Part shown: positions 1 through 20,262 of the stretch, one piece after another
How the letters are laid out: each line of letters starts with the position of its first letter
Numbering within the stretch: position 1 is the first letter of the stretch
Source of the DNA: Paraescarpia echinospica
Lineage: Eukaryota > Annelida > Polychaeta > Sabellida > Siboglinidae
Assembly (NCBI GenBank): GCA_020002185.1
Contig: CM034535.1
Span: 69,242,012 to 69,306,011, forward strand
DNA: 64,000 nucleotides
Reading direction: 5' to 3'
Notes under the pieces: generated by a model
The model's database searches: none
The model's input: only the letters and a program-made list of their open reading frames with translations
What the model was told of the DNA's origin: nothing
Position numbers and translations under genes: made by a program

Positions 1-2489
1 CACACAAAGTACACTTACACACTCCACAAACAGCTTCCCCAGTCCCTGCTACAGGATGAATCTGACAGACACACAAAGTACACTTACACACTCCACAAAC
101 AGTTTCCCCAGTCCCTGCTACAGGATGAATCTGACAGACACACAAAGTACACTTACACACTCCACAAACAGCTTCCCCAGTCCCTGCTACAGGATGAATC
201 TGACAGACACACAAAGTACACTTACACACTCCACAAACAGCTTCCCCAGTCCCTGCTACAGGATGAATCTGACAGACACACAGCACACTTACACACTCCA
301 CAAACAGCTTCCCCTCAGTCCCTAAGCAGGATGAATCTGACAGACACACAAAGCAAGTACCTCTACACACTCCACAACAGTTTCCCTAACTCCTGCTACA
401 GGATGAATTGACAGACACACAAAGTACACTTACATTATTCTCCACAAACAGCTCCCCAGTCCCTGCTACAGGATGAATTCATTAGACACACAAGTACACT
501 TACACTTCCACAAACAGCTTCCCAGTCCCTGCTAAGCAGGATGAATCTGGATGGTATACACAAAGTACACTTACACACTCTATTAAACAGCTTCCCCCAG
601 TCCCTGACTACACTACACACTCCACAAACAGGATGAATCTGACAGACACACAAAGCTTCCGGACTGAATCTGACAGACACACAAAGTACACTTACACACT
701 CCACAAACAGCTTCCCCAGTCCTTGCTTCCGGATGAATCTGACAGACACACAAAGTACACTTACATACTCCACAAACAGTTTCCCCAGTCCCTGCTACAG
801 GATGAATCTGACAGACACACAAAGTACACTTACACACTCCACAAACAACTTCTCCAGTCCCTGCTACAGGATGAATCTGACAGACACATAAAGTACACTT
901 ACACACTCCACAAACAGCTTCCCCAGTCCCTGCTTCCGGATGAATCTGACAGACACACAAAGTACACTTACACACTCCACAAACAGCTTCCCCAGTCCCT
1001 GCTACAGGATGAATCTGACAGACACACAAAGTACACTTACACACTCCACAAACAGCTTCCCCAGTCCCTGTTACAGGATGAATCTGACATACACACAAAG
1101 TACACTTACACACTCCACAAACAGTTTCCCCAGTCCCTGCTACAGGATGAATCTGACAGACACACAAAGTACACTTACACACTCCACAAACAGCTTCCCC
1201 AGTCCCTGCTACAGGATGAATCTGACATACACACAAAGTACACTTACACACTCCACAAACAGCTTCCCCAGTCCCTGCTACAGGATGAATCTGACAGACA
1301 CACAAAGTACACTTACACACTCCACAAACAGCTTCCCCAGTCCCTGCTACAGGATGAATCTGACAGACACACAAAGTACACTTACACACTCCACAAACAG
1401 CTTCCCCAGTCCCTGCTACAGGATGAATCTGACAGACACACAAAGTACACTTACACACTCCACAAACAGCTTCCCCAGTCCCTGCTACAGGATGAATCTG
1501 ACAGACACACAAAGTACACTTACACACTCCACAAACAGCTTCCCCAGTCCCTGCTACAGGATGAATCTGACAGACACACAAAGTACACTTACACACTCCA
1601 CAAACAGCTTCCCCAGTCCCTGCTACAGGATGAATCTGACAGACACACAAAGTACACTTACACACTCCACAAACAGCTTCCCCAGTCCCTGCTACAGGAT
1701 GAATCTGACAGACACACAAAGTACACTTACACACTCCACAAACAGCTTCCCCAGTCCCTGCTACAGGATGAATCTGACAGACACACAAAGTACACTTACA
1801 CACTCCACAAACAGCTTCCCCAGTCCTTGCTTCCGGATGAATCTGACAGACACACAAAGTACACTTACACACTCCACAAACAGCTTCCCCAGTCCCTGCT
1901 TCAGGATGAATCTGACAGACACACAAAGTACACTTACACACTCCACAAACAGCTTCCCCAGTCCCTGCTACAGGATGAATCTGACAGACACACAAAGTAC
2001 ACTTACACACTCCACAAACAGCTTCCCCAGTCCCTGCTACAGGATGAATCTGACAGACACACAAAGTACACTTACACACTCCACAAACAGCTTCCCCAGT
2101 CCCTGCTACAGGATGAATCTGACAGACACACAAAGTACACTTACACACTCCACAAACAGCTTCCCCAGTTCCTGCTACAGGATGAATCTGACAGACACAC
2201 AAAGTACACTTACACACTCCACAAACAGCTTCCCCAGTCCCTGCTACAGGATGAATCTGACAGACACACAAAGTACACTTACACACTCCACAAACAGTTT
2301 CCCCAGTCCCTGCTACAGGATGAATCTGACAGACACACAAAGTACACTTACACACTCCACAAACAGCTTCCCCAGTCCCTGCTACAGGATGAATCTGACA
2401 GACACACAAAGTACACTTACACACTCCACAAACAGCTTCCCCAGTCCCTGCTACAGGATGAATCTGAACGACAGATCAAGTATGAGAGA
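1..2489 (-). repeat. 69-bp minisatellite made of tandem copies of XYLT exon 8 with both splice sites
   Basis: About 35 copies of a 69-bp unit, running off the left edge and decayed between about 300 and 660. Read on the minus strand, each unit is a 43-bp exon-like block from ATTCATCC to GTGGAGTGT, preceded by TGTCTGTCAG (acceptor) and followed by GTAAGTGT (perfect donor), with only 26 bp of intron between blocks. The exon block, read in the phase left by exon 7, gives FIRKQGLGKLFVEC, which matches the xylosyltransferase stretch FIKKQGLDRLFHEC. Most copies read CTG TAG CAG here, an in-frame stop; only a few read CGG AAG or CTG AAG. The right boundary (about 2,480) has a longer natural-looking intron end before the first copy. 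The 69-bp period is divisible by three, so long open frames appear on both strands; they are not genes. Confidence 0.9.
1800..1842 (-). CDS. XYLT: XYLT exon 8, candidate functional copy inside the array
   Basis: This is one of the few stop-free exon blocks in the 69-bp array. It starts after TCTGTCAG, and its first base A joins the AG left by exon 7 to make Arg. It then reads FIRKQGLGKLFVEC and ends in phase 0 at GTAAGT. The other stop-free blocks lie at 1,869-1,911 (FILKQG variant), 903-945 and 696-738. The sequence alone cannot say which block is spliced. Because 43 bp is not a multiple of three, only one block can be used per transcript without a frameshift. The continuation of the enzyme (catalytic and C-terminal parts) must lie beyond the left edge. 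Confidence 0.55.
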
Positions 2490-2564
2490 AATCATCACTA
2501 ACATCTGTAAAAGATGTTCATAGATGAAAATGGGCATTGTAAAACATACATGCAATCATAACTA

Positions 2565-2570
2565 TGCAGG

Positions 2571-2604
<34 letters not shown>

Positions 2605-2612
2605 TACATACG
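2565..2612. repeat. TA-rich microsatellite
   Basis: An imperfect run of TATATA/TATGTA followed by TACATACATA, directly after the exon 8 array, inside XYLT intron 7. Confidence 0.85.
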
Positions 2613-4116
2613 ACATATATTCCTAACAGCAACATATGTAGACCACTCCATTACAAAAGATAGGATATGTACAGCCTCTGAAAACAATGTTCTAAAAATA
2701 AAAAATATTTTTTTTTGGTTCAAATAATTATACATAACATTGTATTTCTGGTTATATTACGTATAGGAACAGTTCAAATTTTAAAATAAAACATTATCCA
2801 TGCATCCAGGGGTCAAAACTTTAAAACAGCGGCCTACTTAATGCAGTGCAGCACATATAGTCTACATATGCTGCTGCTAGGAGTATAATATATATATTTA
2901 AATATATAAGTCAAATAAATGTAGCATTAGATTACAATTAAGGAATAAATAAGACACTACAATACATGCTCATAAAAAGTATCATACACAGCTAGTAATA
3001 TATTCGTCACCTTATAGATTGTTAAAGTTGTACTCACTGGATAACGTTTATAACCTTGTGTAAACAATTTATTTATTAATATTTTATTGTATGGCACAAT
3101 TTTTAGTTTAAATGACCGTGTTAGTACTAATATTTTAGTTTAATGATCATGATGCATGATGTATTGTAAAGTGTGGATCTGGCGCTATAACAAATAAAAT
3201 ATATCATTATTATTATAATACACCTTAGCTCCCTGGCATACTGATCCATCTGATGACGACTCTAAACGGCTTCTCGATTCTGAGATTAACTAACCCTTTT
3301 GTACTGATGCGCCTCTGAGCTTTGTTTCGGAAGATTTAGATGCATAAGAAGTTACCTTATTTTATTATTATTATTATAAAGTCTATTCAAAACATGCTAC
3401 ATTAAAAGCCTTTATAAGGATAATTCAAAATTTGTCACAGACAAATCATATTACAGGCCTACACATTAAAGGAAATAAAAACAAGGCATTAGCTAAAATC
3501 CGTTTTCCATGTGTACACAAAGTTTAACATTTTATGTAACATTTGAGAACATTAAAAAAATACAGAAAAATACATTTGTAGCATAAATTCGATTTTAAAC
3601 CCGTCTGTGTAGCGATTCCCGTGGTTGTTATTGTGATGCAAATTTAATGAGCTAGGCGATCACGTGGTATCGTGACATCACTTATGACCCACACTCGCAT
3701 CAGGCCGACCCTTTCCATGCATTCAGAGCATGTTTACAAGGATAGCTTTTGGGTTGAAACGAGCGTCAGAATGAGTTATTGTGCAATATTCTGATGTAAT
3801 ACAAACACTAGTCATCATAGAGGAACAAGCAGTTATCTTACGGTTCCACATGAATCCAATTTTATTCAAAATAATGAATGCGAATTGGCCTACAAGTCGA
3901 CTAGGTTTCACCGAGCTTGGGCTCGTTTTCAGAATAATTATATCGAATGCAACCAACGGGAGATATTCTACACCAATAAATATACATAGCAAACATATAT
4001 TGTATCCAGCTACAGAAAGTAATGTGTATAATCTCATAATATCACTAGAATATCGATATCTGAAAGAGGAGTTGTACAATTTATCATAACTTAAATCAGT
4101 CAGTGAATTTCCGTCA
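2613..4116. other. AT-rich intron 7 sequence
   Basis: No exon or conserved protein is recognisable. The stretch holds a retroelement 3' tail (see the entry at 3,120-3,226) and a second TTATTATTATTATTA run near 3,358-3,376. A 118-codon minus-strand open frame (3,723-4,079) has hydrophobic stretches but no recognisable family. Confidence 0.6.
3120..3226 (+). mobile_element. 3' tail of a LINE or SINE
   Basis: The stretch ends with GGCGCTATAACAAATAAA followed by TATATCATTATTATTAT. A GCGCTATA box followed by a simple-repeat tail is typical of L2-type LINEs and their SINEs; related tails occur here at 14,270 and 17,290. No coding part remains. Confidence 0.5.
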
Positions 4117-4202
4117 GTGCCGCTAGCTCAGTTGGTAGGCGCGTTGGATTCTTGTCATTTATTTTACAATCGGGCGACGCCGGTTCAATCCTGACACCAA
4201 AC
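4117..4202 (+). pseudogene. tRNA-like sequence (tRNA pseudogene or SINE head)
   Basis: A perfect internal A box (TAGCTCAGTTGG, 4,124-4,135) is followed 49 bp later by a B-box-like GGTTCAATCC (4,182-4,191). The acceptor stem does not pair, the T stem has one mismatch and one wobble, and the anticodon arm holds an AT-rich insertion. It is therefore not a working tRNA, but either a decayed tRNA or the head of a tRNA-derived SINE. Confidence 0.45.
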
Positions 4203-4370
4203 CACTGATGTTTTTAACACTTTTTTATGTTTTCACAAAATAATATAAACCAAATCATTTTGTATACTATGATGCACAGTTTGTAAATATTTTTAGATTT
4301 TTGTAAATATTTATTCGCCACAAAAATGAAAATATGGTAATTATATATAACGATGTTTCTAAATTTTGGC

Positions 4371-4875
4371 GACATGTTGCTAATTAAATGTAATTGTCAC
4401 ATCGTTATAACATGCATAAGTGTACATGTTTCTTGTTTCGAAAACAAAACTCGAAGGAATAACAACAGCCTAGGTTACGCTGGCTCAAAGTGATATGCCC
4501 CGCGTTTTGTAGCTCTAACAAATTCCGTTGGATGGCGTCATATATAGCGCTAGCTAAAATGAAACAGCATCAGTGATTTGAACATTCATAATTCTTAATA
4601 TGATTGCTTGTGTAAATTACATTTGTCAATGTATATATTAAGCACTGCTGCATGAGGAACAACCAGACATTTATGTTATTGTGTGACAAGAATTATTGTA
4701 TTATCTAAATGTATTATTTACGGTTGTTATTGTGATGCAAATATTTCACAGATAAATGTTATTAGAAAAGTTAACTACACAGTAAACAGTATTATTTAGA
4801 TGCAGAGATCATAACATTATGATATTTTAAATATCTGACAGAAAGTAGTATTTTTGAAAGTTAACTTTGAAATAA
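4371..4875 (+). repeat. Dispersed repeat, copy 1 (partner at 27,257-27,761)
   Basis: About 505 bp that realigns, in the same orientation, with 27,257-27,761. Shared blocks include GACATGTTGCTAATTAAATG at the left, GGTTACGCTGGCTCAAAGTG in the middle and AAAGTTAACTTTGAAATA at the right. The copies differ by many substitutions and small indels. There is no coding potential and no clear terminal repeats, so the element type is unknown. One copy is in XYLT intron 7 and the other in intron 1. Confidence 0.8.
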
Positions 4876-5242
4876 AATAGTAATGGGTGGCTTCTTTTTT
4901 CATTTTTAAACAGAAAATGCACCAATTGACACGAAAAATGCTACTTACATTTCTGATCACACGTGAGATATTCATTCAGCCATGTTCTCTGCCTTGCCTT
5001 CATAAATGGTAATATGTACACTGTACTTTTCGTTTATTTTTATATTTTATGATTGGACACACTAAGTATGATTACCAAAAATTACCGTGCTGGTGTATAT
5101 ATATATATGTATATATACTCATAGTTGCACGTCCTATCCCGCATCCGATCGCGCGTTCAATCACGTGCCTGACCGCACTTCGTAGCATGTCTGAACAAAT
5201 TTGGACTGGCAAAAATTTGATCCTGGGCGAGGCCCTGCCTAC
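4876..5242. other. Intron 7 sequence with a small TA microsatellite
   Basis: AT-rich intron DNA without recognisable genes. A TATATATATATATGTATATA run sits near 5,096-5,118, about 125 bp downstream of the exon 7 donor. Confidence 0.6.
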
Positions 5243-5323
5243 CTGCTTGTGTCTGTGCCATGTGACTTGACAAAGTTCTTGTCCCTGTGTTGAGTCAAGT
5301 AGGCCACGAGGTCCTCCAGAGGT
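5243..5323 (-). CDS. XYLT: XYLT exon 7 (xylosyltransferase, GT14/Branch domain)
   Basis: An 81-bp exon between acceptor GTTGCAG and donor AG|GTAGGC on the minus strand. In the phase left by exon 6 it reads PLEDLVAYLTQ and then HRDKNFVKSHGTDTS, matching the family segment [21 protein letters not shown] just downstream of the NLS motif. It enters with one base and leaves with two, which fits exons 6 and 8 exactly. These are codons about 374-400 of the assembled protein. Unlike most other exons of this gene, neither edge has been turned into a tandem repeat, although the exon 8 array begins one intron downstream. Confidence 0.9.
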
Positions 5324-6302
5324 CTGCAACACCAACCGATGATCAATGTACACTGTGTAATTATTCATGAATTTCTACACTAAAAAAATATCAAATGAGA
5401 TCCATTTCAAGTGCAATCAGGTGGCCTTGTTATGTATGAATTGTGTCTGGTCTTGATAATCAGACATTAGGTTGCAGCACTGGCACATGTTACTAGGAGC
5501 AAATAGAAAATGTGGAAAGTGTAAAACAAGAGCATGTTAGGATTACTGGACAACTGAGAAACTGTGGCAAGAACAAATCTATGGTTGTTAGAAAGAACTG
5601 AGGCGTCTGTTGTAAATGTCTTGTGAACACTGTAAAACAAACATTACTATCTTTATTACATATGCACACACATTTACAGTACGTGTTATACGCACATGCG
5701 TGCAGGCACATACACCAAACACATACAAACACACACCAAACGCACACACGCACCAAACACACACACACCAAACATACACACACACACACCAAACATACAC
5801 ACAGGGTTTCCGCCAGAAAAAATAATTTGGGTACGGAGTTAGTCAATTGTGAGACCGCGGAACTGGCAGGCTTAGGCGACCTGATGGACGGGGAGGTGTG
5901 GGGGCCCAAAATTGGATTTCTAGATGCTCGGAGAAATTATTTCCCGGCCTTTGAAGTCGGAAATCCCGCCCGGCTCATGGTGATCATTTCCATGTTTCGT
6001 AGGAGAATAAATAATAAATGTAACAGTCAGCAGGAAAATTATAAACTGTAGTATGGTATCTCGTTGGATTATTTTTCATCACCAAGAAACAATGAATACT
6101 CGAAAACATCGCGAAAAATATACAGCCATGACAGCACACCGTATTCTTTTCACTAAGCCTAGCAATATACCGGTATGCCATGTTCTATCCTGAGATGAAG
6201 GCTTCAATCACGCAGTGAATACCACGTTTAGCCAATCACAGAATAGCTAGCATAAACGTGTTGGCACGCGCTCATTCTTCACCTTTAAAAACGGCACCCA
6301 AG
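5324..6302. other. Intron 6 sequence with CA-rich tract
   Basis: No exon is seen. A CA-rich imperfect microsatellite covers about 5,690-5,806. It is followed by a GC-richer block (5,807-5,985, starting CAGGGTTTCCGCCAGAA). That start resembles a transposon terminus, but no matching right end was found. Confidence 0.5.
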
Positions 6303-6317
6303 CACACACACACACAC

Positions 6318-6384
<67 letters not shown>
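6303..6384. repeat. (CA)n microsatellite
   Basis: An almost pure CA run of about 80 bp after a short ACACACCAAACACA lead-in. It directly abuts the distal end of the exon 6 donor array. Confidence 0.95.
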
Positions 6385-6387
<3 letters not shown>

Positions 6388-6577
6388 ATGGGGAAGTAAG
6401 AAAGTTGGACTCATCTGATAGGGAAGTAAGAAATTTGGACTCATTTGACGTGGAAGTAAGAGAGTTGGACTTACTTGACGGGGAAGTAAAAAAGTTGGAC
6501 TCACTTGACGGGGAAGTAAAAAAGTTGGACTCACTTGACGGGGAAGTAAAAAAGTTGGACTCACTTGACGGGAAAGT
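6384..6577 (-). repeat. 30-bp tandem array carrying copies of the XYLT exon 6 donor
   Basis: About six to seven units of 30 bp (plus-strand form TCACTTGACGGGGAAGTAAA plus AAAGTTGGAC). On the minus strand each unit repeats the last bases of exon 6 and its donor, CCCGTCAA|GTGAGTCC. The two units nearest the exon (donors near 6,501 and 6,531) keep the donor intact. One unit has GTAAGTCC (near 6,471), and the most distal units have lost the GT (TCATTTGAC, TCATCTGAT). This gradient suggests that the array grew next to the exon and that its distal copies are older. Confidence 0.85.
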
Positions 6578-6767
6578 CCGACTCACTGAGGTTGAGGAAG
6601 AAATTCCACTTCCAGTGTTTGATGTGGAGCAGATCGCGCATGCACTGCAGGAGCATGCTCAGGAGGCTCGCACCACCCCAGATCGATGCAAACCGGTGCA
6701 CTGCCAGATGTATGTTATCAAACTTCTCGCTGAGTGTCATCAACTCTCTGTACAGGTATTCCTGTCT
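6565..6767 (-). CDS. XYLT: XYLT exon 6 (core GT14 domain)
   Basis: A 203-bp exon, phase 0 in and phase 2 out. It begins after CTTTGTAG with RQEYLYRELMTLSEKFDN and continues through [19 protein letters not shown] to WKWNFFLNLSESDFPVK. This matches the xylosyltransferase core ([32 protein letters not shown]), including the WGGASLL and FFxNLS motifs. The phase-0 joint with exon 5 reproduces the HVDKRSDYL region as HVDARQEYL. Both edges of this exon are repeated: the acceptor in the array at 6,741-7,520 and the donor in the array at 6,384-6,577. The true acceptor is taken as the exon-proximal copy, because only there does the reading frame continue. Confidence 0.92.
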
Positions 6768-7520
6768 CTACAAAGACACAGGTCTCTAAGTGACATCACC
6801 TATCTATATATAGGTATTGCTGTCTCTACAAAGACTCAGGTCTCTAAGTAACATAGACTCTCAGTACATATATTCCTGTCTCTACAAAGACTCAGGTCTC
6901 TAAGTGACGTCAACTCTCAGTACACGTATTCCTGTCTCTACAAAGACACAGGTCTCTAAGTGATGTCAAAGGTATCTGAGTGACGTCAACTCTCTATACA
7001 GGTATTCCTGTCTCTACAAAGACACAGGTCTCTAAGTGACATCACCTATCTATATATAGGTATTGCTGTCTCTACAAAGACTCAGGTCTCTAAGTAACAT
7101 AGACTCTCAGTACATATATTCCTGTCTCTACAAAGACTCAGGTCTCTAAGTGATGTCAACTCTCAGTACACGTATTCCTGTCTCTACAAAGACACAGGTC
7201 TCTAAGAGATGTCAAAGGTATCTGAGTGACGTCAACTCTCTATACAGGTATTCCTGTCTCTACAAAGACACAGGTCTCTAAGTGACATCACCTATCTATA
7301 TATAGGTATTGCTGTCTCTACAAAGACTCAGGTCTCTAAGTAACATAGACTCTCAGTACATATATTCCTGTCTCTACAAAGACTCAGGTCTCTAAGTGAC
7401 GTCAACTCTCAGTACACGTATTCCTGTCTCTACAAAGACACAGGTCTCTAAGTGATGTCAAAGGTATCTGAGTGACGTCAACTCTCTATACAGGTATTCC
7501 TGTCTCTACAAAGATATAGA
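6741..7520 (-). repeat. Acceptor array of XYLT exon 6 (60-bp units, 246-bp higher-order repeat)
   Basis: Thirteen copies of CTTTGTAG|AGACAGG on the minus strand, of which the one at 6,767/6,768 is the real acceptor and twelve lie in the intron. Each unit joins about 30 bp of exon 6 start (AGACAGGAATACCTGTACAGAG and variants) to about 30 bp of intron. Four slightly different units form a 246-bp block repeated three times (blocks starting near 6,755, 7,001 and 7,247), so the array grew first by units and then by blocks. Small open frames across it are not genes. Confidence 0.9.
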
Positions 7521-7784
7521 TTGCTGACTAAGTGACTGATCCCTGACGGAGTTGAACAACAACTTACTGTGTCAACGTGTACTTAATAGTATTGGTCTTA
7601 AGTAACTCATCATTGTAAGAGAACTTACTGCGTCAACGTGTACTTAATAGTATTGGTCTTAAGTAACTCATCATTGTAAGAGAACTTACTGTGTCAACGT
7701 GTACTTAATAGTATTGGTCTTAAGTAACTCATCATTGTAAGAGAACTTACTGTGTCAACGTGTACTTAATAGTATTGGTCTTAA

Positions 7785-9188
7785 CCCTTTAGACCTCAGA
7801 GTGTTTCGGTGTAAAGCCACTGGTTCCTCAGAGAATTAGGTCACATTCTGAAAATGTTTGGGAGTGTCCGTTTTTGTGGCATAGCTCTTTTATTATTGAA
7901 TTTCCATTATTGCAAGTTGTAACTATTTTAAAGGACTTAGAATGCTCTTCACATTGGGAGTAAATATGCTTTTGTATGAATAACAATAGTTGTCCATATC
8001 TCGGTAGGCGTGCCAGTATTTAGGTATTTCACTACAACATGTCATATTATGAGTCATAACTTTTTTATGCTTCATTTCTTACTGCTACAAGTTGTGTTTA
8101 TTTGAAAGATAATTTAATTACTTACATTTTGGTATAAAAATTGTTATTATATCTAAAATATACGTTAAAATTAAATATGGGGTACATCACTGTACGGAGT
8201 CTACCTTAAATGCACACCATGTTGCATGTTGCAGTGCTGTAATTTATATGATACTAAAATGTAATTAAAACAATATTTTGGTACAACATATGTTATTGTA
8301 TCATAAGTATTTTGCCCAAACAATATGTGGTAAAACAAAACCCTGTCGGACAATAATTTCTACACCGAACATAATGATTGACTGCTGTGTAACTTTTTTA
8401 TGATCAATATTGTACTGCTACAACTTTATTTTATTATAAAGAGCAGATAAATGCCTACACAATGATACCTGCATTGTTAAATTCTGATGGCTAGAATGAT
8501 ATATACTTCATTACTGTGGAATGGGAGTGTCTGGTCACAGGCACATGTAGCTGTCAAGTGTCAGCACTACCACCCCGGGCAGCCTCGGTCAAAACAACAA
8601 GTGAACAACAGGACAGTCCCGCAAGTTACAACACTTATCATTCACAAAATAATACAACTATAACATCGTCATACAATGTCCTAATCGAAATATAAATAGC
8701 GTATTGACTTCGTGCAAAAATAAGGAATACAGAATGCGGAACTGGTCTCGTAGCGTGTTTACAAAATGGGCTTGAACGACCAGCTTCCCTGACAACAACA
8801 ACGATCGTCCAGCCGAAGTATCGAATAGTCGCATATAATTACATGAACATCGATGTCTGAATCACTTTCTTTGATATCACTGTCATCACAGACACACGAC
8901 TTATGCAGACAAACGACTAGGACCAACAGACGCCATTTTGTTCTCTCAAAAACTGGAGCAGCTTGGAAAAATGCATAAAACTTTGATAAGTCGAATAGCA
9001 ACATACACCAGAAATACCCACAATTCATTGCCAATATGTTAATGAGACATTTTGAATGTGTTTCAAAAGTATCCTCCAGAGTGCGCCTCTGGAATAGATG
9101 AAACTATGACACTAATCTTTTCGGGCGGGTTTGGCCGACTTGAGGAGTTGGAACTCGGGCGGGTTTGGCAGACTTGAGGTCTAATGGG
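7785..9188. mobile_element. piggyBac-type element 1, 1.4 kb, TTAA target duplication
   Basis: It is flanked by TTAA on both sides (7,781-7,784 and 9,189-9,192). The ends are CCCTTTAGACCTCA and, inverted, CCCATTAGACCTCA. The CCY..GGG ends with TTAA duplication are the piggyBac signature. Removing the element restores the minisatellite sequence GGTCTTAAGTAACTC. A subterminal CGGGCGGGTTTGGC motif occurs twice near the right end. A minus-strand open frame (8,759-9,034) with an acidic DDSDIKESDSDID stretch could be a remnant transposase N-terminus; no transposase core is present, so the copy is non-autonomous. Confidence 0.85.
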
Positions 9189-9317
9189 TTAAGTAACTCA
9201 TCATTGTAAGAGAACTTACTGCGTCAACGTGTATGTAATAGTATTGGTCTTAATAAGTAAGTCATCATTGTAAGAGAACTTACTGCGTCAACATGTACGT
9301 AATAGTATTGGTCTTAA

Positions 9318-9937
9318 CCATTTAAGCTGTGACCACTTAATACTGCATTCCCAGTGAATATGCAACATAATGGACTACCTCACTTCAAGTCAAGATTTGA
9401 GCAACAAAAATGCATTTTATGAATAAGATTGTTATATATTTTCGGAAAGTATAATAATCAGCGAATAAATTGAGCCATATCATTTTACATTCGGTAGTCA
9501 TGGTAACCAACAGTTTTTGCAGTTGCTGAACTCGGTTGTATATTACCTTCGCCGACATCGTTATTATGTCGATCGTCAACATCCGACAAAGATTCTTCGA
9601 TAAAACTATCAAATAATCTGTCCAAAACATACGGTGGTAAATCGCTAGTTGAAGTAATGCGGTCCGCCATTGTGGCCGCTGCGGATTTTGATAATCCATC
9701 ATTAAAAACCGTGAAAATCACCTTAAACAATTATTGAGCGATAATAAACAATGACCACTGCTGAATAGCTAATTCATTCGCCTTGACAACCGTACACAAC
9801 AAGTGGCTCCACGTAGTGGATTATTATGAATAAAAACGAATTAAATAGCAGACATTGTCAATGCCAGAAAACCGGCCTGTCGTACTGAAGCATCACAGGC
9901 AGTGCGGCTGGAAAACAGGCCTGTCGTACTGAAATGG
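9318..9937. mobile_element. piggyBac-type element 2, 620 bp, TTAA target duplication
   Basis: It is flanked by TTAA (9,314-9,317 and 9,938-9,941) with CCATTTA... at the left and ...AAATGG at the right. Removal again restores a minisatellite unit. Near the right end the block GGAAAA(C)CGGCCTGTCGTACTGAA is present twice. A minus-strand frame from about 9,679 to 9,487 starts MADRITSTSDLPPYVLDRLF and becomes acidic, which would fit the N-terminal tail of a piggyBac transposase. The rest is missing. Sequence and TIR differ from element 1, so this is a different family. Confidence 0.78.
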
Positions 9938-11273
9938 TTAAGTACTCATCATTGTAAGAGAACTTACTGCGTCAACGTGTATGTAATAGTATTGGTCTTA
10001 ATAAGTAAGTCATCATTGTAAGATAACTTACTGCATCAACATGTATGTAATAGTATTGGTCTTAATAAGTAAGTCATCATTGTAAGAGAACTTACTGCGT
10101 CAACGTGTAAGTAATAGTATTGGTCTTAATAAGTAAGTCATCATTGTAAGAGAACTTACTGCGTCAACGTGTATGTAATAGTATTGGTCTTAATAAGTAA
10201 GTCATCATTGTAAGAGAACTTACTGCGTCAACATGTATGTAATAGTATTGGTCTTAATAAGTAAGTCATCATTGTAAGAGAACTTACTGCGTCAACGTGT
10301 AAGTAATAGTATTGGTCTTAATAAGTAAGTCATCATTGTAAGAGAACTTACTGCGTCAACGTGTATATAATAGTATTGGTCTTAATAAGTAAGTCATCAT
10401 TGTAAGAGAACTTACTGCGTCAACGTGTATGTAATAGTATTGGTCTTAATAAGTAAGTCATCATTGTAAGAGAACTTACTGCGTCAACATGTATGTAATA
10501 GAATTGGTCTTAATAAGTATGTCATCATTGTAAGAGAACTTACTGCATTAACATCTATGTAATAGTATTGGTCTTAATAAGTAAGTCATCATTGTAAGAG
10601 AACTTACTGCGTCAACGTGTATGTAATAGTATTGGTCTTAATAAGTAAGTCATCATTGTAAGAGAACTTACTGCGTCACCGTGTAAGTAATAGTATTGGT
10701 CTTAATAAGTAAGTCATCATTGTAAGAGAACTTACTGCATCAACGTGTACGTAATAGTATTGGTCTTAATAAGTAAGTCATCATTGTAAGAGAACTTACT
10801 GCATCAACGTGTACGTAATAGTATTGGTCTTAATAAGTAAGTCATCATTGTAAGAGAACTTACTGTGTCAACGTGTACGTAATAGTATTGGTCTTAATAA
10901 GTAAGTCATCATTGTAAGAGAACTTACTGCATCAATGTGTACGTAATAGTATTGGTCTTAATAAGTAAGTCATCATTGTAAGAGAACTTACTGCGTCAAC
11001 ATGTATGTAATAGTATTGGTCTTAATAAGTAAGTCATCATTGTAAGAGAACTTACTGCGTCAACGTGTACGTAATAGTATTGGTCTTAATAAGTAAGTCA
11101 TCATTGTAAGAGAACTTACTGCGTCAACGTGTACGTAATAGTATTGGTCTTAATAAGTAAGTCATCATTGTAAGAGAACTTACTGTGTCAACGTGTACGT
11201 AATAGTATTGGTCTTAAGTAACTCATCATTGTAAGAGAACTTACTGCATCAACACCTTTCAATAGATGCTTGT

Positions 11274-12468
11274 GTGGCACCACTAAGACAACTAGAACGT
11301 GTGAACAATCGGCGGACTCGCAGGGGGTGTAGGGCAGGGAGGTCAAAGCAAAGACCCATTCCTGTACTGATTACTCCTCGCTTCCCATCATCGGTCATCG
11401 TGAGATGTGAAACCTACACATCGAATTTGATTCGACTCGACAGTGTATGTGACATACCATCTGTACGCCAAGTGTGTTTCTGCTTGTTGAATGCCAGATC
11501 AGTGTGTGACACGAAGCAAGCGGGGAAAGCGACCGTGATATGTGACCTCATTGAGGACAATGATCTAGACATACTCGCCATCACAGAGACGTGGTTGAGT
11601 GCTGATGACTCCGTCTCTACTGGTTGCATCACACCTGCTGGTTACCAACTACGACATGTCCCGAGAACGTACAGCACCGGTGGTGGTGTTGCAGTCGTCT
11701 ACAAATCTGGCTTCACGACGCGACATCTCGAGATGCCAAAATCAAATACATTTGAATCGATGTGTCTACAACTCAGCAATGATACTCAATCTGTTCGTCT
11801 TCTTGTCGTCTATCGCCCCCCGCCAAACTCCAAGAATGGCTTTACAACTGCGGAATTTCTCCTAGAATTTGGTGATTTGTTGGACACCATGTCGATGTAT
11901 ACGTCAAACATGCTGATCGCAGGTGATTTTAACTTCCACATGGACAATACATCAGACAATGACACTAAGCGCTTTCAAAACATTCTAAATGCAGCAGATC
12001 TTACTCAGCACGTGGAAGTCCCGACGCATGTTGCCGGACATACCATTGACCTGCTTATAACGCGCTCATCTGATACGTTTCTGAACAATATACGAACAGA
12101 CATCCCACACATGTCAGACCACTCGGCAATTCATTGCACACTACAACTCGTGAAACCACCAAACGTCCGGGTAACGACGATGAGTCGAAACTATCGACAG
12201 ATCAATACCACTGCGATATGTGATGAAATCCGTTCGTTGCTACTGTCAAATCATCTGTCTGATGACATGAACCATGCTGTTGACATGTACAATGAAACCA
12301 TTGCGGCTATCATTGACAAGCAAGCACCGTTAAAGAACCGCACAGTGATTGTACGACCACACACGCCGTGGTATAATGATGGCATACGATCGCAAAAATG
12401 TGTTAGACGACAACTGGAAAGAACATGGAGAAAATCTGGACTGGAGTCTGACAGGCTGGTGACCAGAA
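11274..12468 (+). pseudogene. LINE ORF2, endonuclease part
   Basis: An apurinic-type endonuclease of the exonuclease/endonuclease/phosphatase fold. Visible motifs are FCLLNARSV at the start, LDILAITETWLS (catalytic Glu), LLVVYRPPPNS, MLIAGDFNFHMD (catalytic Asp/Asn) and MSDHSAIHC (terminal SDH). The frame stays open from the first Met at 11,274 to about 12,468. It then leaves the true frame: the protein ending LERTWRKSGLESDRL is followed by out-of-frame sequence. A small deletion at that point separates it from the reverse-transcriptase frame. Confidence 0.9.
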
Positions 12469-14257
12469 GCAGCTGTTCAAGATTGTTGCCAAGCTCCTAC
12501 ACACTGATAATGGCACACCACTACCACCATGTGACTCGTCTGACACACTGGCAATGCGGTTCTCGGATTTCTTCTCAGAAAAGATCTCGAAAATTCGGTC
12601 TGAACTGAATCAGAATGTCATCATTGTAAATGCCTCTGCTGAGGATGCACCGCAGACATGTCTGCTGACTGCATTTGAGCCAGCCACTGAGGCTGAAATT
12701 GGAATGTTGTTGAAGTCATCGCCAGTGAAATCTTGTGAACTTGATCCCATTCCGACATGGCTTCTTAGAGACTGTGCGCACGATGTTGTACCTGTGCTCA
12801 TGACAATTGTTAACCTGTCTCTGAGAACGGGGGTAATGCCTTCACACTTGAAGGAAGCGCACATCAGGCCAGTACTCAAGAAACCGAGTCTAGACAAAAC
12901 TGTCTTGAATAACTACCGACCCGTGTCAAATCTACCCTATCTATCGAAGACAATAGAACGTGTCGTTGCTGCGAGATTGTCAGCTCACATGTCAGAGCAC
13001 AATCTCTGTGAGCCCTATCAGTCAGCGTACAAGCCGAATCACAGCGTTGAGACGGCCCTTGTCTGTGTGCAGAATCACATCCTGCACGCAATGGACAATC
13101 AGAATGTTGTCATCATGGTTCTCCTGGATCTATCGGCTGCGTTTGACACCGTCGACCATGAAGTGATGTTGCATAGACTCTCACATGATATCGGAGTGGT
13201 CCAAGATGCACTGGACTGGTTTAAGTCATACCTGAGAGACAGAGTCCAGTCAGTCCACATTCATGGTGCTACATCGCCTGCTCGTCCTCTGGTATACGGG
13301 GTACCACAAGGCTCCGTGCTGGGTCCTCAGCTGTTCTCCATCTATGTAGCACCAGTTGCTAAGATTATTCGCAAGTACAATTTGATGTGTCATTTCTACG
13401 CGGATGATACTCAAATCTACATTCCAGTGAAACCCCACCAAGAGAACATTGCTGCGGCTGTCGTCCGTATTGAAGAATGTGTAGCGGAGATCAGGACGTG
13501 GATGATGACAAACTTTTTAAAGTTGAATGACTCAAAGACAGAAGTCATCGTGTTCGGCTCTGCGCAACAACTAAGAAAAATTGAGCTGCGCACACTATGC
13601 ATTGGAGACTGTTTGGTCACTGTAACTCAGAATGTACGGAATCTTGGTGTACAGTTCGATGCCGAGATGAAGATGGAGACGCACGTGATTGCGGTCTGTA
13701 AATCTGCAATTTTCCATCTCCGAAATATTGCAAGAATAAGACGTTATCTAACACCTGCAGCGACAGAACAAGTCATACATGCGTTTGTTACCAGCAGACT
13801 TGACGTTGGCAATGCATTACTCCACCGACTGCCTGTGAAACAACTAGAACGGTTGCAGAGAGTACAGAACTGGGCGGCTCGCCTTGTCGACGGCGCCAGG
13901 AAGTTCTGTCATGTCACACCTCTATTGATCAAGCTGCACTGGCTGCCAATAGCAGTTAGAGTAGAGTATAAGATACTTCTACTCACGCACCGAGCACTGA
14001 CTGGCTGTGCACCACAGTATATCACCAAATGTGTGACCCGACGTCAGCCAACTCGATTGTTGCGCTCCAGTGAACACAATCATCTATGTGTACCACGTGC
14101 AACGCGTCGCTGGGGTGATAGATCCTTTTGCGTGGCAGGCCCAACACTATGGAACTTGCTGCCGCAAAAGCTGACTGCAACAACAATGACAAACACTGAT
14201 TTTAAATCAAACCTTAAGACTTACCTGTTTTCCCGAACATTCTGTAAGGCGCCGTGA
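12463..14257 (+). pseudogene. LINE ORF2, reverse-transcriptase part
   Basis: Reverse transcriptase of the L2/CR1 group. The true frame begins near 12,463 (DQKQLFKIVAKLLH), upstream of the first Met at 12,554. Motifs are LNNYRPVSNLPYLSKTIERV, VLLDLSAAFDTVDHEVML, YGVPQGSVLGPQLFSIY and HFYADDTQIYI with the YADD active site intact. The C-terminal domain ends NLKTYLFSRTFCKAP. It is in a different frame from the endonuclease, so the original single ORF2 has been broken by a deletion, and this copy is unlikely to be active. Confidence 0.92.
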
Positions 14258-14429
14258 GCAACGATTGTTGGAACGGCGCAATATAAATGTCACGATTTGA
14301 TTTTGATTTGATTTATGTAATAGTATTGGTCTTAATAAGTAAGTCATCATTGTAAGAGAACTTACTGTGTCAACATGTATGTAATAGTATTGGTCTTAAT
14401 AAGTAAGTCATCATTGTAAGAGAACTTAC

Positions 14430-14590
14430 TGCATCAACGTGTATGTAGTAGTAGTGGTCTTTGTGGTAGATGCCCTTGAGTAGACGTCGGATCTGACGCA
14501 AGGCACGTCCGTTCACTGTCAGTACGAAGACAATGCGCACCTTGTCCACCTTCCCTGGGCTGGGAGATGGAAAGGGAGGCCTCAGTGTCT
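14430..14590 (-). CDS. XYLT: XYLT exon 5 (start of GT14 catalytic domain)
   Basis: A 161-bp exon after a good acceptor (GTTTCTTTTTCAG), with donor GCA|GTAAGT. Two bases complete a Lys with exon 4. It then reads [20 protein letters not shown] and [20 protein letters not shown], ending [10 protein letters not shown]. This matches the family's [21 protein letters not shown] and FFYIHVDKRSDYL, the nucleotide-binding first strands of the GT14 fold. Codons about 253-306. Its donor is the founder of the large 64-bp array downstream in intron 5. Confidence 0.93.
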
Positions 14591-14992: not shown

Positions 14993-17000
14993 ACATAACA
15001 AAATAAAAGCAATATGATAGCATAAGCATGTTTTGGTATTGCAACATCAAACATTTATTTAAACAATGTCTATTACAGTTACCGGTACTGTTTTTATGCT
15101 TGAGTTTATCAAAACTGATTATTCCTGAGGAATGTTTGGATCATTTTATTTTCAACATAACAGTTATCATCAGAATTCTAAAACAGCAACATTTCAATTG
15201 ATTTTTTCAGCTTGAAAATCCAAACTTTTAGTGTCCTGTCCGACTGCACATACTGGTGTATAAGGCAAACTGTATTCACGTTACATATCAATGATTTATT
15301 ATAAAAACTTGTGTTTTAATTTATCACTTGTTTTTTCCATAAGACAATAGGCAACATGATACAATACTTAGTATATTATATGATGTGCATTGTTCTGCAT
15401 CATGATTGATACATTAATTAGTTTAACTGATATTCAATGTGAACAACTGTCATAATTGTTTTGCAGTGTTTACAGAAGAATTGTAGATTACTTTGCACAC
15501 TGGCAGTAATGTTGATATATTTGTGTTAATCTGTGATGTATAAAAATAGTCCTTTGCTTTGTTGAATGATTGTATTTGCATTTGACATTTCTTGTTAATT
15601 TCGTTTTCCAAATCAAACTTTTTAAATGTTACCTAAAATCATTACTGCTTTAGCCAACATGATCATTACCATTTATTTATATTAAAATCGTAAAATGGCT
15701 AATAATCACACTAGGTGAAATGCAATTAACAAATTTGTTACAAACAATTAAATTCAATTGTAATGGCACAATGGAAACAATCTGGAAATGATGAACTTTT
15801 CCCGATATATAGAAGATGTATACAAACAATGGTTTGAGTTTTAACATTCGTACTAATATCTTGACAAATATTTTGTTATAAATAACTACTGAACTTCAAT
15901 TTAATATACTCAATGTGTTGCTTTATGGAGGCTGTTCGCAAACGTGGTAATTATGGTTAGGGGAAGGCGGCAAATTGTTCAGTGATGAATTGTCTGGTAT
16001 ACATTTCATTGGCCAAGCAGCCAGATATCACATCTGAACCACGCAAACCAATTCACACAATAAAACTAACCTCTCAGCACGCTATTAAAATGCTTTTATA
16101 ATTACAAACCTGACAAACATCCCAACATATGTTAATAACAATTTCACATCCGTGGAAAAGAACATACAAATTATGAAAATGTTTGATTTACTGGAATTAA
16201 ATGCATTAGCCAACTTGACCCCTTGCTGTCCTCCTGGATGTCACACCTGTCCATCATAATTTATCCAGAGAACACGGCTCTGCTGTTAATAGTGGGAGTC
16301 CAGTGTCACGTTTGATTGTTTGATGTTTAATTTAGTCACTCCAGCTATTCTGTGGCCTTCCTCTTTTTATTTGACCTTTAAAGTCTTGCTTGAAAGCTAT
16401 GTTAATGATGTTTTTGTTTGGTATACGACAAAACATGTCCAAACAACAGGATCTGGCTATTTTGTAGTCTGTCTGCCCTGGTAACACATCTGATAGCCCG
16501 CAGGAAATGCATCTCAAAAACTTCAAGGGATGTGATATGTGATCGTACTGTCCAGATTTACTGCACCATAAATTGCTATAGGCTGTGTAAGGGCTCCATA
16601 TAGTCTGGCTGTCATTCTTACTGAGATGCCTCTGTTTGCACATATACTATATCTGAGTGTACCAAATGCTGCAGATGCTAAGGCTACTTGTCTATCAACA
16701 TCTCTCTCTGGAGAGGGTACTATACTGCGTAATGTTTAAAATAGCACACACTAAATGAAAGGTCATCTGCAAAATGTGGATGGAAGACAAGGAGAATGTG
16801 GACGGAAGACAATGAGAATGTCTAAGCAATGTAGTAAGAACATTTGGTGACAACTGGAAAGATTGGTGGGGAAGGAAACATATCTGTGATCACATAAAAC
16901 TGAGGGTGATGACCAACTATGTCTACAACAGGACTAGCATCTGATGATGACACCCATCGCAATAACATTATTATTAATAATTAACATAAACCAATTTGTG
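14993..17000. other. AT-rich intron 4 sequence
   Basis: Nothing recognisable as a host exon. A minus-strand frame at 16,332-16,643 ends in FKGQIKRGRPQNSWSD, reminiscent of the C-terminal RGRPxxxW stretch of some LINE proteins. That is too weak to call. Confidence 0.5.
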
Positions 17001-17312
17001 GAGTGCAGTGGTGTAGTGGCTTCGGATTCTCAATCAAGAGATTTCCGGTTTGAACCTTCTTGCTACTGTTTCGAACCTTTGGCAAGTTATTTCACTCCAC
17101 GTTGCTCCAGGTCACTCAGCTGTATAAATGTACACCTGGCTATAGACAGTGGTATATTTGCAGTACACATTAATTGCAATGTGGCCGAGTGCTTCCCAGA
17201 GAAGTCGAGATGGTGTTCCATTGAACAGGTTAGCCAGTGGGTGAAGTGTAAAGCGCTTTGAGCAGTCCTAAGTACTGGGATCCAGTGCTATATAAGAACT
17301 TACCATTACAAA
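17001..17312 (+). mobile_element. tRNA-derived SINE
   Basis: A-box-like GTGGTGTAGTGGC (about 17,008-17,020) and B-box-like GGTTTGAACC (17,047-17,056) are followed by a conserved-looking body (TTATTTCACTCCACGTTGCT, CAGCTGTATAAATGTACACC). The 3' end GTAAAGCGCTTTGAG...GTGCTATATAAGAA resembles the 3' end of L2-type LINEs, consistent with LINE-driven mobilisation. It lies just downstream of XYLT exon 4, antisense to the gene. Confidence 0.8.
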
Positions 17313-17384
17313 AATCCCAAAATGTGTTAGCACCAGCCAGATGAAAGAGGCCTATAAAATGAACTTGCCAGACAGAAGACTTAC

Positions 17385-17552
17385 TCCCAAGTCCAGTGTG
17401 GTAGATCTTCATGGCGTTGAAGCCTCCACATGTTTGACTTGAATCTGCAGGACATGGACTGTCACAGGCTTGTTCTGACAGTCTCAACGCCTCGCCATAG
17501 GAATGACCACACCAACACTCATAACTGTACTCAACACCCGCTAGTTGGAATC
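17385..17552 (-). CDS. XYLT: XYLT exon 4 (second half of WSC domain)
   Basis: A 168-bp exon, phase 1 in and phase 1 out, donor GGGA|GTAAGTC. It reads FQLAGVEYSYECWCGHSYGE, then CDSPCPADSSQTCGG and MKIYHTGLG. This completes the WSC module begun in exon 3, with the expected Cys pattern (ECWCG, CDxPCxxD, CGG). WSC is a putative carbohydrate-binding domain reported between the stem and catalytic domain of invertebrate xylosyltransferases. Codons about 197-252. Its acceptor and first 39 bp are tandemly repeated upstream; the exon-proximal copy at 17,552 is the one that keeps the frame. Confidence 0.93.
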
Positions 17553-17858
17553 CTGCAACAACAACACTCATAACTGTACTCAACATCCGCTAGTTGGAAT
17601 CCTGCAACAACAACTCATAACTGTACTCAACACCCGCTAGTTGGAATCCTGCAACAACAACACTCATAACTGTACTCAACACCCGCCAGTTGGAACCCTG
17701 CAACAACAACACACATAACTGTACTCAACACCCGCTAGTTGGAATCCTGCAACAACAACACACATAACTGTGTTCAACACCCGCCAGTTGGAACCCTGCA
17801 ACAACAACACTCATAACTGTGTTCAACACCTGCCAGCTGGAAAACTGCAACAATATTA
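17516..17858 (-). repeat. 49-bp acceptor array of XYLT exon 4
   Basis: Seven copies (real one plus six) of a 49-bp unit. On the minus strand it is GTTGTTGCAG| followed by 39 bp of exon 4 (GATTCCAACTAGCGGGTGTT, then GAGTACAGTTATGAGTGTT). Copies drift away from the exon: the outer ones encode FQLAGVEHSYEC and the outermost begins TTTTCCAGCTGGCAGG. The outermost copy is preceded by what looks like the original intron end (GAATATTTTAATATTGTTGCAG, read in two pieces). Forty-nine is not a multiple of three, and entry at an outer copy soon meets a stop. Confidence 0.93.
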
Positions 17859-17898
17859 AAATATTCAGTTACATTGATGACGATGAGGAAGACCAATG

Positions 17899-19005
17899 CT
17901 AAAGGCCGGCACACACGAGAGCTATCTGCTGAGCCAACAGCTACGCGTGGCTGTTGGCTCAGCAGATTGCTCTCGTGTGCGCTGCGTTTATTGTGAGGAA
18001 TGCGCCACGCGAGGCGGTGAGCAAAATATCTATCGTGTTTAATATTTTTTGCCTCGCGAGGCCAAAGTCTCACCGTCTGCGATGCGCGTAAGCTACGTGC
18101 TGAGCTGCAAAAATCAACTGGCCAATGAAAATCCGTAGCGTTTACGTCATTTCAGAAATGGCGACTACCAACGAAATCGTGAACGACGTCCTTTTTTGAA
18201 ACTGCCGAAACGTTTTGGGATCCTCAGCGTTTAGTTTTCTAATCAGATTTGAATATAACCTTGTCCCTGACGTCTTTGAATCCAATCTGGCTCACGTCGT
18301 TCGGCATGCCACTCTCCAACGATGATGACGACGTAGCAACAAATGGAACAGACGATGCAAAAATTATGTTAATTAGTATTAATTAAGTAGCAGTCATTAG
18401 TTAATTAGCATTAATTAGTGTTATTTGCTAACTGTTTAGATGTTTTTTAAATAAATAATTTAATAACATTTAACTGTTGAATAAATGTCAGTTTTATTTT
18501 AACATTAGTGTAATTTATACATTATTATTCCAGTGTATTATTTTGTTTGTTTGACGTTTAGTTAGTGTTAGTAGTTAGTTAATGTTAGTGAGTTAGTCAG
18601 TGTTAAATACTGTAAATTAACGTTTATTACTTATAAAAGCATATTTAATACAAACATTATTGTTATATTATAACTTTGTATTAAATTTATACATTTTACA
18701 ACAGGGTTGCTCTTACGTTAGCAGCATGCATAACTATTGCCTTAATGAGAGTATCTCTGACCATACATTTCTTTGCATTTATTTGTTGTATATAATATGT
18801 ATTTTATGGTCGAATAAATTATTCTGAACACACCATTTTTAACTAAACACGTAATTAAAATGTAGTCATGTGACTTGATATATAGTGGTTAGTTCAGCAC
18901 TTTACTCACCGTGTGCGGTGAAACACGGCGAGAGCTATCAGCTGAGCCAACAGCCGCGCGTGGCCGTTTGCTCAGCTGATAGCTCTCGTGTGCGCCGGGC
19001 TTTAG
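17899..19005. mobile_element. TIR DNA element with internal hairpins at both ends, 1.1 kb
   Basis: The left end starts CTAAAGGCCGGCACACACGA and the right end, inverted, CTAAAGCCCGGCGCACACGA, with similarity continuing for roughly 80-100 bp. Each terminal repeat is itself a long hairpin (GAGCTATCTGCTGAGCCAAC pairing across a TACGCGT or GCGCG loop). The interior is AT-rich and non-coding, so the copy is non-autonomous. The GGCCGGC start would fit PIF/Harbinger or hAT-like families; the target duplication is not clear enough to decide. Confidence 0.75.
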
Positions 19006-19559
19006 ATGGAACGACAGCATGAAAAGAAACCTTAGGAGGGCGGGTGTGAACAGCCAAGAATGAAAGGCGATTGCGGACAACAGACAGAGAGGGGAAATAA
19101 CGAGAAAAGCAGAAGAAGCAACTGGGTGACTTGAACCCCGCCCCGCCAGGGGAAGAAGATACATTGCATAGTTTGTCCTAGGCTGAGGGGGTGTAAAACA
19201 GACAAACAGACAGATGGACACACAACCTTTATTTGACCCATGCAAGAGCTGAACAGGAGTCCCCACATTGACGTACTGACCCTCAGGCGCATTGCCGATT
19301 AATATAACTATTACACACATATTGAAACATGCAAATGCACACTGACTTTAATGGTCCACGACTCAACATACTGTTTTTGTTTTTCCTTCCTTTCAATTAA
19401 TATACACAGGCATGTCATATTTATGAAACATCAACAGGGAATAACATCTCGCATCCATGCTTTTAGTGTGATTAAATATTGTGACCAGGACACACATCTA
19501 GAAATGGCACATAAATACATCAAGTTCAGATAATAAATGTACTGGACGCAATACTAAGT
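19006..19559. other. Intron 3 sequence, unassigned
   Basis: A GC-richer block (19,006-19,320), probably an old repeat, then AT-rich intron. No exon or family is recognised. Confidence 0.45.
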
Positions 19560-20262
19560 GGTGCTAGTGGACAGAAGCATCAGCAGACACAGGTTGTCAT
19601 GCGCTTTGAGTGAAACACTAAGCGTTACTTAGTGGACTGACCTATCAAATTGATACTAAGTGTAGTAGCAGTAGATTGACACAAGCTTTGAGTGAAACAA
19701 TAAACATTAGTGGACTGACCCATAAGATTGATACGAGTAATGAGTGCAACATTAACTGTCACTAAGTACAACTGACTTAGGTTGACACAATTATTGAGTG
19801 AAACACTAAGTGTAATAGACATACATTGACACAAGTACTGAGTGAAACACATACACTGATGTGATTATATTGACTGAAACACTAAGTGTAATAGACGTAC
19901 ATTGATACAGCTATTGAGTGAAACACTAAGTGTAACAGGCACAAACTTGGAAAAGTACTAAGTGAAACACTAAGTGTAGTAGACATCGGTTGACATGAGT
20001 ATTGAGTGAAACACTAAGTGTACATAACAGACACATACATTGACACAAGTATTGAGTGAAACACTAAATGTAAAAGACACGTTGAAACAAGTGTTAAGTG
20101 AAATACTAAGTGTAATAACCACAGACTGAAATAAGTATTAAATGAAACACTAAGTGTAATAGACATACACTGACATGAGGATTAAGTGAAACACTAAGTG
20201 TAACAGACACAGACTGACACAAGTAATGAGTGCAACACTAAGTGTACACGGACTGACCTGTC
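19560..20262 (-). repeat. Decayed donor array of XYLT exon 3
   Basis: About 15 diverged units of 45-60 bp sharing, on the minus strand, GTCAGTCTGTGTCTGTTACA then CTTAGTGTTTCACTCAATAC. The unit nearest the exon is the real intron start (CTGACAG|GTCAGTCCGTGTACACTT). The most distal unit (about 19,573-19,640) carries a copy of the exon 3 end, AACCTGTGTCTGCTGA, showing that exon sequence was part of the duplicated unit. It is more degenerate than the other arrays and so probably older. Confidence 0.75.

Follow-up and report, generated by a model that had tools for sequence, protein, structure and literature searches.

Tandem arrays at the exon edges of a xylosyltransferase gene

The minus-strand xylosyltransferase (XYLT) gene in the window (i.e., the whole stretch of 64,000 nucleotides analyzed here) holds six tandem arrays whose repeat units span exon edges, which raises the question of whether such arrays are preferentially born at exon ends, land there by chance or are tolerated there. 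XYLT exons 2 to 7 show GT/AG splice sites and consistent phases, and together read 329 amino acids without a stop; a query of 344 amino acids, comprising these exons and 15 residues of exon 8, matched "Xylosyltransferase 1" structures (E = 9.5e-65). The assembly comprises 1.08 Gb, with 14 large chromosomes of 56-97 Mb; a search of it for COX1 returned no match. The exons are located as follows:

20554-20800, minus strand: XYLT exon 2, with repeat copies at neither edge
20258-20386, minus strand: XYLT exon 3
17385-17552, minus strand: XYLT exon 4, within the part matching KREMEN1, a region that we take to be WSC-like
14430-14590, minus strand: XYLT exon 5
6565-6767, minus strand: XYLT exon 6
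5243-5323, minus strand: XYLT exon 7, likewise with repeat copies at neither edge

All six arrays proposed in the initial annotation were recovered by TRF near the positions given there, with units of 44, 49, 61-64, 56, 30 and 69 bp (in the order exon 3 to exon 8). These arrays, and a retrotransposon inserted among them, are:

19560-20262, minus strand: degenerate array of 44-50 bp units at the exon 3 donor (TRF 19782-20246; outer limits from the initial annotation)
17509-17853, minus strand: 49-bp array at the exon 4 acceptor, with seven acceptors, the authentic one being the last (17552)
7561-14461, minus strand: 61-64 bp array at the exon 5 donor, with 28 decoy donors
11235-14257, plus strand: LINE-type retrotransposon open reading frames (endonuclease, reverse transcriptase), interrupting the exon 5 donor array between two of its pieces
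6733-7514, minus strand: 56-58 bp array at the exon 6 acceptor, with 12 decoy acceptors
6382-6586, minus strand: 30-bp array at the exon 6 donor (TRF 6382-6577)
1-2467, minus strand: 69-bp array of the whole of exon 8, with 35 copies, reaching the window edge

Seven of the 20 XYLT edges tested sit in tandem arrays with exon sequence in their units, i.e., the donors of exons 3, 5 and 6, the acceptors of exons 4 and 6, and both ends of exon 8. The adjoining introns hold 6 copies of the head of exon 4, 28 of the tail of exon 5 (in an array of four pieces, at 7561-7784, 9190-9317, 9939-11253 and 14314-14461) and 12 of the head of exon 6. The exon 3 donor is the weakest case, with one exact 16-nt copy of the exon tail (19580-19595) and an array that, by raw TRF limits, ends 12 nt before the exon. 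At the remaining 13 edges tested no long copy of the exon end was found; one of them, the exon 3 acceptor, showed an 8-nt match, which 3 of 200 shuffles equaled.

At the exon 6 donor, the exon tail with 8 intron bases gave a repeat score of 37, a value reached by none of 200 simple shuffles, while the 30 exonic bases by themselves scored just 21, matched by 1 of 200 shuffles. The 7-nt motif GTGAGTC occurs twice here, 22 nt apart; one occurrence is exonic and the other is the donor. The seed is flanked by a short direct repeat that takes in the donor.

The claim that the common property of these arrays is position and not sequence was borne out, as the units span exon edges and are mutually unrelated; among the 15 pairs formed by the six XYLT units, similarity was never above that of shuffles.

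The exon 8 array

In the exon 8 array a 43-nt exon is repeated together with its acceptor and donor, and 26 nt separate successive copies. The exon encodes RFIRKQGLGKLFVEC, including a split first codon, and this sequence aligns with RFIRKQGLDRLFLEC of solved XYLT1. An interpretation of 1-2467 as purely intronic was also considered, since its longest frame is unlike XYLT; it was rejected, as another frame reads RFIRKQGLGKLFVEC. Open frames are found in the following copies:

1800-1911, minus strand: two adjacent exon 8 copies with open frame, whose exons start at 1911 and 1842
903-945, minus strand: exon 8 copy with open frame
696-738, minus strand: exon 8 copy with open frame

The copies are irregular between about 270 and 660, and the array extends to window position 1, where a run of 5,000 N starts; the authentic exon 8 copy may lie inside this 5-kb gap. 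Exon 8 departs from a simple choice of the exon-proximal splice site, as discussed below for the other arrays, because all its copies are whole exons and the fifth codon is a stop in 28 of the 35.

Relation to described systems

The initial annotation knew of no described system of this kind. That statement was wrong, as both the "mirages" of lancelet genes and tandem repeats at exon boundaries of human paralogs had already been described. According to PMC3087553 and PMC3902484, mirages occur in the amphioxus Adh3, BflGb6, BflGb9, PGBD5 and troponin C genes as minisatellite-like copies of an intron-exon boundary (donor or acceptor) with units of 10-160 bp, and many but not all copies contain splice signals; RT-PCR indicated that splicing is left undisturbed (PMC3087553). 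Like mirages, the XYLT units contain the exon-intron boundary with exon-derived sequence (weakly so at the exon 3 donor), vary from array to array and in many cases keep AG or GT. Unlike mirages, the XYLT arrays number six in one gene, and one of them repeats a whole 43-nt exon; the genome, too, is unlike Branchiostoma in size and chromosome number. The XYLT arrays are, overall, an extreme and unusually dense case of an already known array type.

Human genes in segmental duplications likewise carry internal tandem repeats at exon-intron boundaries; according to PMC2812944, these repeats alter which part is intron, their number differs among recent paralogs and novel introns can form. The XYLT arrays, on the other hand, appear to lengthen existing introns. 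The idea of intron gain by tandem duplication (the Rogers model, as cited in PMC3087553; for a potato RdRp case, PMC4974935) resembles the XYLT arrays in the step by which duplicated AGGT-like sequence supplies the splice sites. The earthworm metallothionein gene shares intronic arrays of minisatellite unit length; in the passages of PMC12783039 consulted, a duplicated fourth exon is missing from the transcript, and an exon-edge array is not among the features described. Introner-like elements are characterized by the same sequence serving as intron at many loci, and the six XYLT arrays, compared among themselves, share no such sequence.

Decoy splice sites and the preferred explanation

AG or GT splice signals are preserved in many copies across the arrays. 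Reading of the frame in four arrays revealed that all 49 decoys tested (6 and 12 at the acceptors of exons 4 and 6, 28 and 3 at the donors of exons 5 and 6) would lead to a premature stop in the mRNA; in each of these arrays the frame stays open only with the exon-proximal site.

We consider it probable (approx. 0.8) that these are exon-edge minisatellites of the mirage kind, in which duplications spanning an exon edge are tolerated because they merely add to the intron and leave the protein as it was. A short stretch over an exon edge, or the whole 43-nt exon, would have been tandemly duplicated, probably through slippage or microhomology, and the array would then have grown through unequal exchange, leaving a working-looking splice site in nearly every unit. 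Under exon definition, the site nearest to the coding exon (the first donor or the last acceptor) would be used, and as a result the array would remain intron and the protein unchanged. Selection would purge duplications within exons, while those crossing an edge could survive as near-neutral changes. The suggestion in the initial annotation that duplications leaving splicing intact are kept agrees with the anatomy of the arrays. Further points that we counted against this explanation, besides exon 8, are the degenerate exon 3 array and the exon 6 tail, which scores within the shuffles when the intron bases are removed.

Placement of arrays relative to chance

Whether arrays hit exon edges more often than random placement would predict depended on the null model used. 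The test originally proposed, which compares edges with random intronic positions, was run on XYLT and on the myosin genes of the same genome, and neither showed an excess: arrays cover 7 of 20 XYLT edges (35%, or 6 of 20 if raw TRF limits are taken) as compared to 35.7% of non-coding bases, and 4 of 108 edges of 54 myosin exons (3.7%) as compared to 7.0% of non-coding bases. Conversely, both gene sets showed an excess under a birth-site null, in which arrays arise anywhere and those inside exons are removed. Six of 10 XYLT arrays span an edge (expected 0.26), as do 4 of 10 myosin arrays (expected 0.78-1.49; P = 0.004-0.04), i.e., the excess in this independent sample is modest. In XYLT, moreover, 5 of 9 arrays end no more than 45 nt inside an exon when the limits of two arrays are set by hand (random mean 0.51; equaled in none of 20,000 trials), and 4 of 9 do so with raw TRF limits (P = 0.001). 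The XYLT statistics are biased upward because XYLT was the discovery case.

The myosin sample comprised 54 of 76 matching places and left out 22, of which 18 belong to the C11 and C14 clusters and 4 lie on small contigs. The positive edges are the L040 donor, L052 acceptor, L060 donor and L062 donor; not counted, because their scores were under the cut-off, are L030 (a 4-nt overlap with an AT-rich array) and the short arrays of L049 and L056. Among the first 20 myosin exons, two exon-end scores exceeded every shuffle, i.e., L040, a true case, and L025, at which TRF reports no array.

One explanation for the birth-site and array-end results is a mutational process that favors exon ends (e.g., through transcription or splicing complexes, or microhomology of splice motifs), which would seed arrays there more than elsewhere. 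We offer this tentatively, as plain coverage is without excess, the myosin sample is small with two of its four arrays within a single gene, and XYLT was chosen for its extreme look; exon ends may receive some additional seeding, but this is not proved. Alternatively, minisatellites may simply be so numerous here that some land on exon edges, as the near-identical coverage of XYLT edges and non-coding bases would suggest, together with the array content of 10-kb regions sampled elsewhere, which ranges from 0 to 62%. This appears rather improbable, since the array ends are made of exon sequence and lie tens of bases inside exons, a placement that the array-end trials found to be rare under uniform placement. 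The broader proposition that duplication focused on exon edges acts genome-wide, several-fold above intron interiors, turning exon ends or whole exons into arrays of decoy sites outside lancelets too, is unlikely on present data.

If exon ends were indeed preferred birthplaces of arrays, they would represent a common and testable mutational source for the growth and gain of introns as well as the turnover of splice sites. Genes with up to 28 decoys next to the authentic site also represent natural experiments on splice-site choice among near-identical candidates, and exon-edge arrays are a trap for gene prediction and assembly.

The arrays could also be regulatory, with decoys reducing XYLT output via nonsense-mediated decay or exon 8 copies serving as alternative exons, and the stops produced by every decoy tested, as well as the intact splice motifs in most copies, would fit such a role. 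We regard it as very unlikely, as most random intron sequence would also be expected to yield stops, and as intact donors are no sign of special constraint in an exon 5 array where 45 of 64 columns are invariant. Collapse or inflation of repeats during assembly, to which the N run adjoining the exon 8 array and its irregular copies might point, is extremely unlikely to account for the mirage-like arrays, given that the five others are internal, with distinct units and a retrotransposon inside one, and that the same kind of array occurs in myosin genes; the exon 8 array and its copy number are the least certain.

Minisatellites in sampled regions

Across the window flanks and 13 scattered 10-kb regions, which together hold 184 kb of non-N sequence, minisatellites represent approx. 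10% of the bases. A 51-bp array to the left of the window showed a likeness to XYLT exon 11 or 12 that was not above shuffles. Ten exon-like open reading frames from the sampled regions were tested against Pfam, and five matched at E ≤ 0.01; a near miss among these frames was a TIG-domain gene with a 43-bp duplication that begins 18 nt into a probable intron.

Results

Xylosyltransferase gene structure

Tandem-repeat arrays at exon edges are real as anatomy in the Paraescarpia echinospica assembly (1,083,790,144 bases in 3,111 contigs, including 14 contigs of 56 to 97 Mb) and extend beyond the xylosyltransferase gene (XYLT); whether exon edges carry an excess of arrays depends on the null chosen, and the sample is small. 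XYLT exons 2 to 8 occupy window positions 1-20800 on the minus strand. The splice sites of exons 2-7 are GT/AG and their phases agree, and the joined exons encode 329 amino acids without a stop; this protein plus 15 exon 8 residues matched 'Xylosyltransferase 1' structures (6ej7, which we take to be human xylosyltransferase 1) over two stretches (E 9.5e-65). Residues 77-181, which are presumably WSC-like, resembled KREMEN1, a weaker match than that to Xylosyltransferase 1. Four more exons, placed by eye and numbered 10-13, are located 5.9 to 11.7 kb past the left window edge, beyond a stretch of exactly 5,000 N (positions 5001-10000 of fetched region L005, directly followed by window position 1); exon 9 is assumed to be inside this gap.

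Arrays at XYLT exon edges

The initial annotation had described arrays with unrelated units at XYLT exon edges. TRF reported an array at or near every one of these places, and comparison of six units (15 pairs) found nothing shared. Eighteen edges (exons 2-7 and 10-12) were tested by looking for the exon end in the intron next to it; for exon 8, both edges were assessed by reading its array, giving 20 edges in total with exon 13 left out.

Copies of XYLT exon ends in the adjoining intron
Exon 4 head (acceptor): 6 copies
Exon 5 tail (donor): 28 copies; exon identity of full-length copies, 27 to 29 of 32 nt
Exon 6 head (acceptor): 12 copies
Edges without a long copy (13): both edges of exons 2, 7, 10, 11 and 12; acceptors of exons 3 and 5; donor of exon 4

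The exon 6 tail together with the first 8 intron bases reached a top score of 37, as compared to 21 or less in simple shuffles (n = 200); its 30 exonic bases alone scored 21, equalled by 1 of 200 shuffles, as the array units carry an 8-nt insertion. The exon 3 donor represents the weakest case, since apart from a single exact 16-nt copy of the exon tail at 19580-19595 (score 32 vs. 26 or less in shuffles) its array is degenerate. For the 13 edges without a long copy, the search of the adjoining intron gave top scores of 11 to 18; 12 of these scores were reached by at least 20 of 200 shuffles, the exception being the exon 3 acceptor, whose 8-nt match was equalled in 3 of 200. The exon 5 donor array contains a retrotransposon with endonuclease and reverse transcriptase ORFs and thus probably predates this insertion.

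Two further arrays were observed in the window. A 67-bp array (20946-23900; 44 copies, 98% match) is located upstream of exon 2, and no exon edge was found inside it. A 72-bp array (34005-36001) consists of open-frame sequence (AGHGKGPCDGMGGGMKRKADNLVK), open in several frames, and is listed by TRF as three adjoining entries with approx. 4, 8 and 16 copies; it adjoins an apparent decayed transposon-like gene at 33.6-34.0 kb.

The exon 8 array

The 69-bp exon 8 unit represents a whole small exon, i.e., an acceptor, 43 coding nt and a donor, followed by 26 nt to the next copy, a spacer too short for an intron. Among the 35 copies counted to the window edge, where the N run adjoins, the XYLT frame is open over the 43 nt in four (starts 1911, 1842, 945 and 738). 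Three of these encode RFIRKQGLGKLFVEC and one RFILKQGLGKLFVEC, as compared to RFIRKQGLDRLFLEC at the same place in the solved XYLT1, and in 28 of the remaining copies the fifth codon is a stop. The authentic exon 8 may be one of the four open copies or may be located within the N gap. A fifth copy scored as open, at 546, was discarded as frame-damaged. Copies are irregular at approx. 270-660 and regular again in the last four before the gap.

Decoy splice sites

Each motif-matching site of four arrays, other than the exon-proximal one, was put into the spliced frame (49 decoys: 18 acceptors, 6 of them at exon 4 and 12 at exon 6, and 31 donors, 28 of them at exon 5 and 3 at exon 6). All 49 produced a premature stop, and the frame stays open with the exon-proximal sites; as most intron sequence also gives stops, these data show what splicing must do rather than selection on decoys. 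Across 26 units of the exon 5 array, variation in the donor columns is confined to position -3, which allows no argument for donor constraint because 45 of the 64 columns of the whole unit are invariant.

Position of arrays relative to exon edges

Of 9 XYLT arrays, 5 ended at most 45 nt into an exon (exon 8 array omitted, exon 5 array treated as a single block, limits of the exon 3 and exon 6 donor arrays set by hand), as compared to a mean of 0.51 and a maximum of 4 in 20,000 random placements and a maximum of 3 in 4,386 circular shifts; raw TRF limits gave 4 of 9 (P = 0.001). The claim that random minisatellite birth would not hit exon edges this often found no support in plain coverage, with 35% of edges in arrays (7 of 20, or 6 of 20 with raw TRF limits) as compared to 35.7% of 28,418 non-coding bases. 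Under a birth-site model, in which arrays are born anywhere and those inside exons are removed, 0.26 edge-spanning arrays are expected vs. 6 observed among 10. As XYLT was selected for its arrays, this result and the array-end result are overstated.

A profile search of the assembly yielded 76 myosin-head matches; 54 places, whose repeat content was not known beforehand, were fetched with flanks of mostly 200-250 bases. Arrays including exon sequence and a splice site were found at 4 of 108 edges, a nominal total since exon limits come from profile matches and not from RNA, some matches overrun an edge, and a few flanks are cut.

Edge-spanning arrays in the myosin sample
L040, C1:62.73 Mb: donor, 25 bp unit
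L052, C12:15.10 Mb: acceptor, 20 bp unit
L060, C2:77.78 Mb: donor, 58 bp unit, same myosin gene as L062
L062, C2:77.78 Mb: donor, 20 bp unit, same myosin gene as L060

Plain coverage again showed no excess (3.7% of edges vs. 7.0% of 25,024 flanking bases). Edge-spanning arrays numbered 4 among 10, for which the birth-site model gave an expectation of 0.78 using the smallest unit per array (P = 0.004) and 1.49 using the largest (P = 0.04); the count is slightly conservative, as the ten probably include the L062 array a second time, through its far end in L060. We prefer the birth-site null because exon-filling arrays cannot survive.

The L060 and L062 arrays sit at neighbouring exons, and the 58-bp unit includes telomere-like CCCTAACCCTAAC. 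At C2:77.76 Mb (L035), a 23-25 bp array stops approx. 30 nt short of a myosin exon acceptor. At C3:27.60 Mb (L025), the start of the myosin exon match resembles sequence immediately upstream, with a score of 22 that exceeded 100 shuffles; TRF reported no array there.

Probable origin and related systems

In the most probable scenario, tandem duplication across an exon edge places a splice site in every copy; with the exon-nearest site in use, all the rest would become intron and the duplication would be tolerated. At the exon 6 donor, the short direct repeat GTGAGTC occurs twice at a distance of 22 nt, and one of the two is the donor; this sequence arrangement suggests slippage between splice-like motifs as the seed of that array.

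Lancelet mirages are minisatellite-like tandem copies of intron-exon boundaries; PGBD5 and troponin C are among the mirage genes (PMC3902484). Tandem repeats at exon-intron boundaries are also described for human paralogs (PMC2812944). No closer case in other animals was recognised in the literature searched, a scope that excluded most subscription journals. With a host outside the lancelets, the window would carry mirages into a further group of animals.

Elsewhere in the assembly, a perfect 43-bp duplication (region L012, 4832-4919) starts 18 nt past the probable donor of a TIG-domain gene, near the edge and not across it. At C3:30.00 Mb (L010), one ORF occurs ten times, 918 bp apart, over most of a 10-kb region, representing a long-unit tandem repeat.
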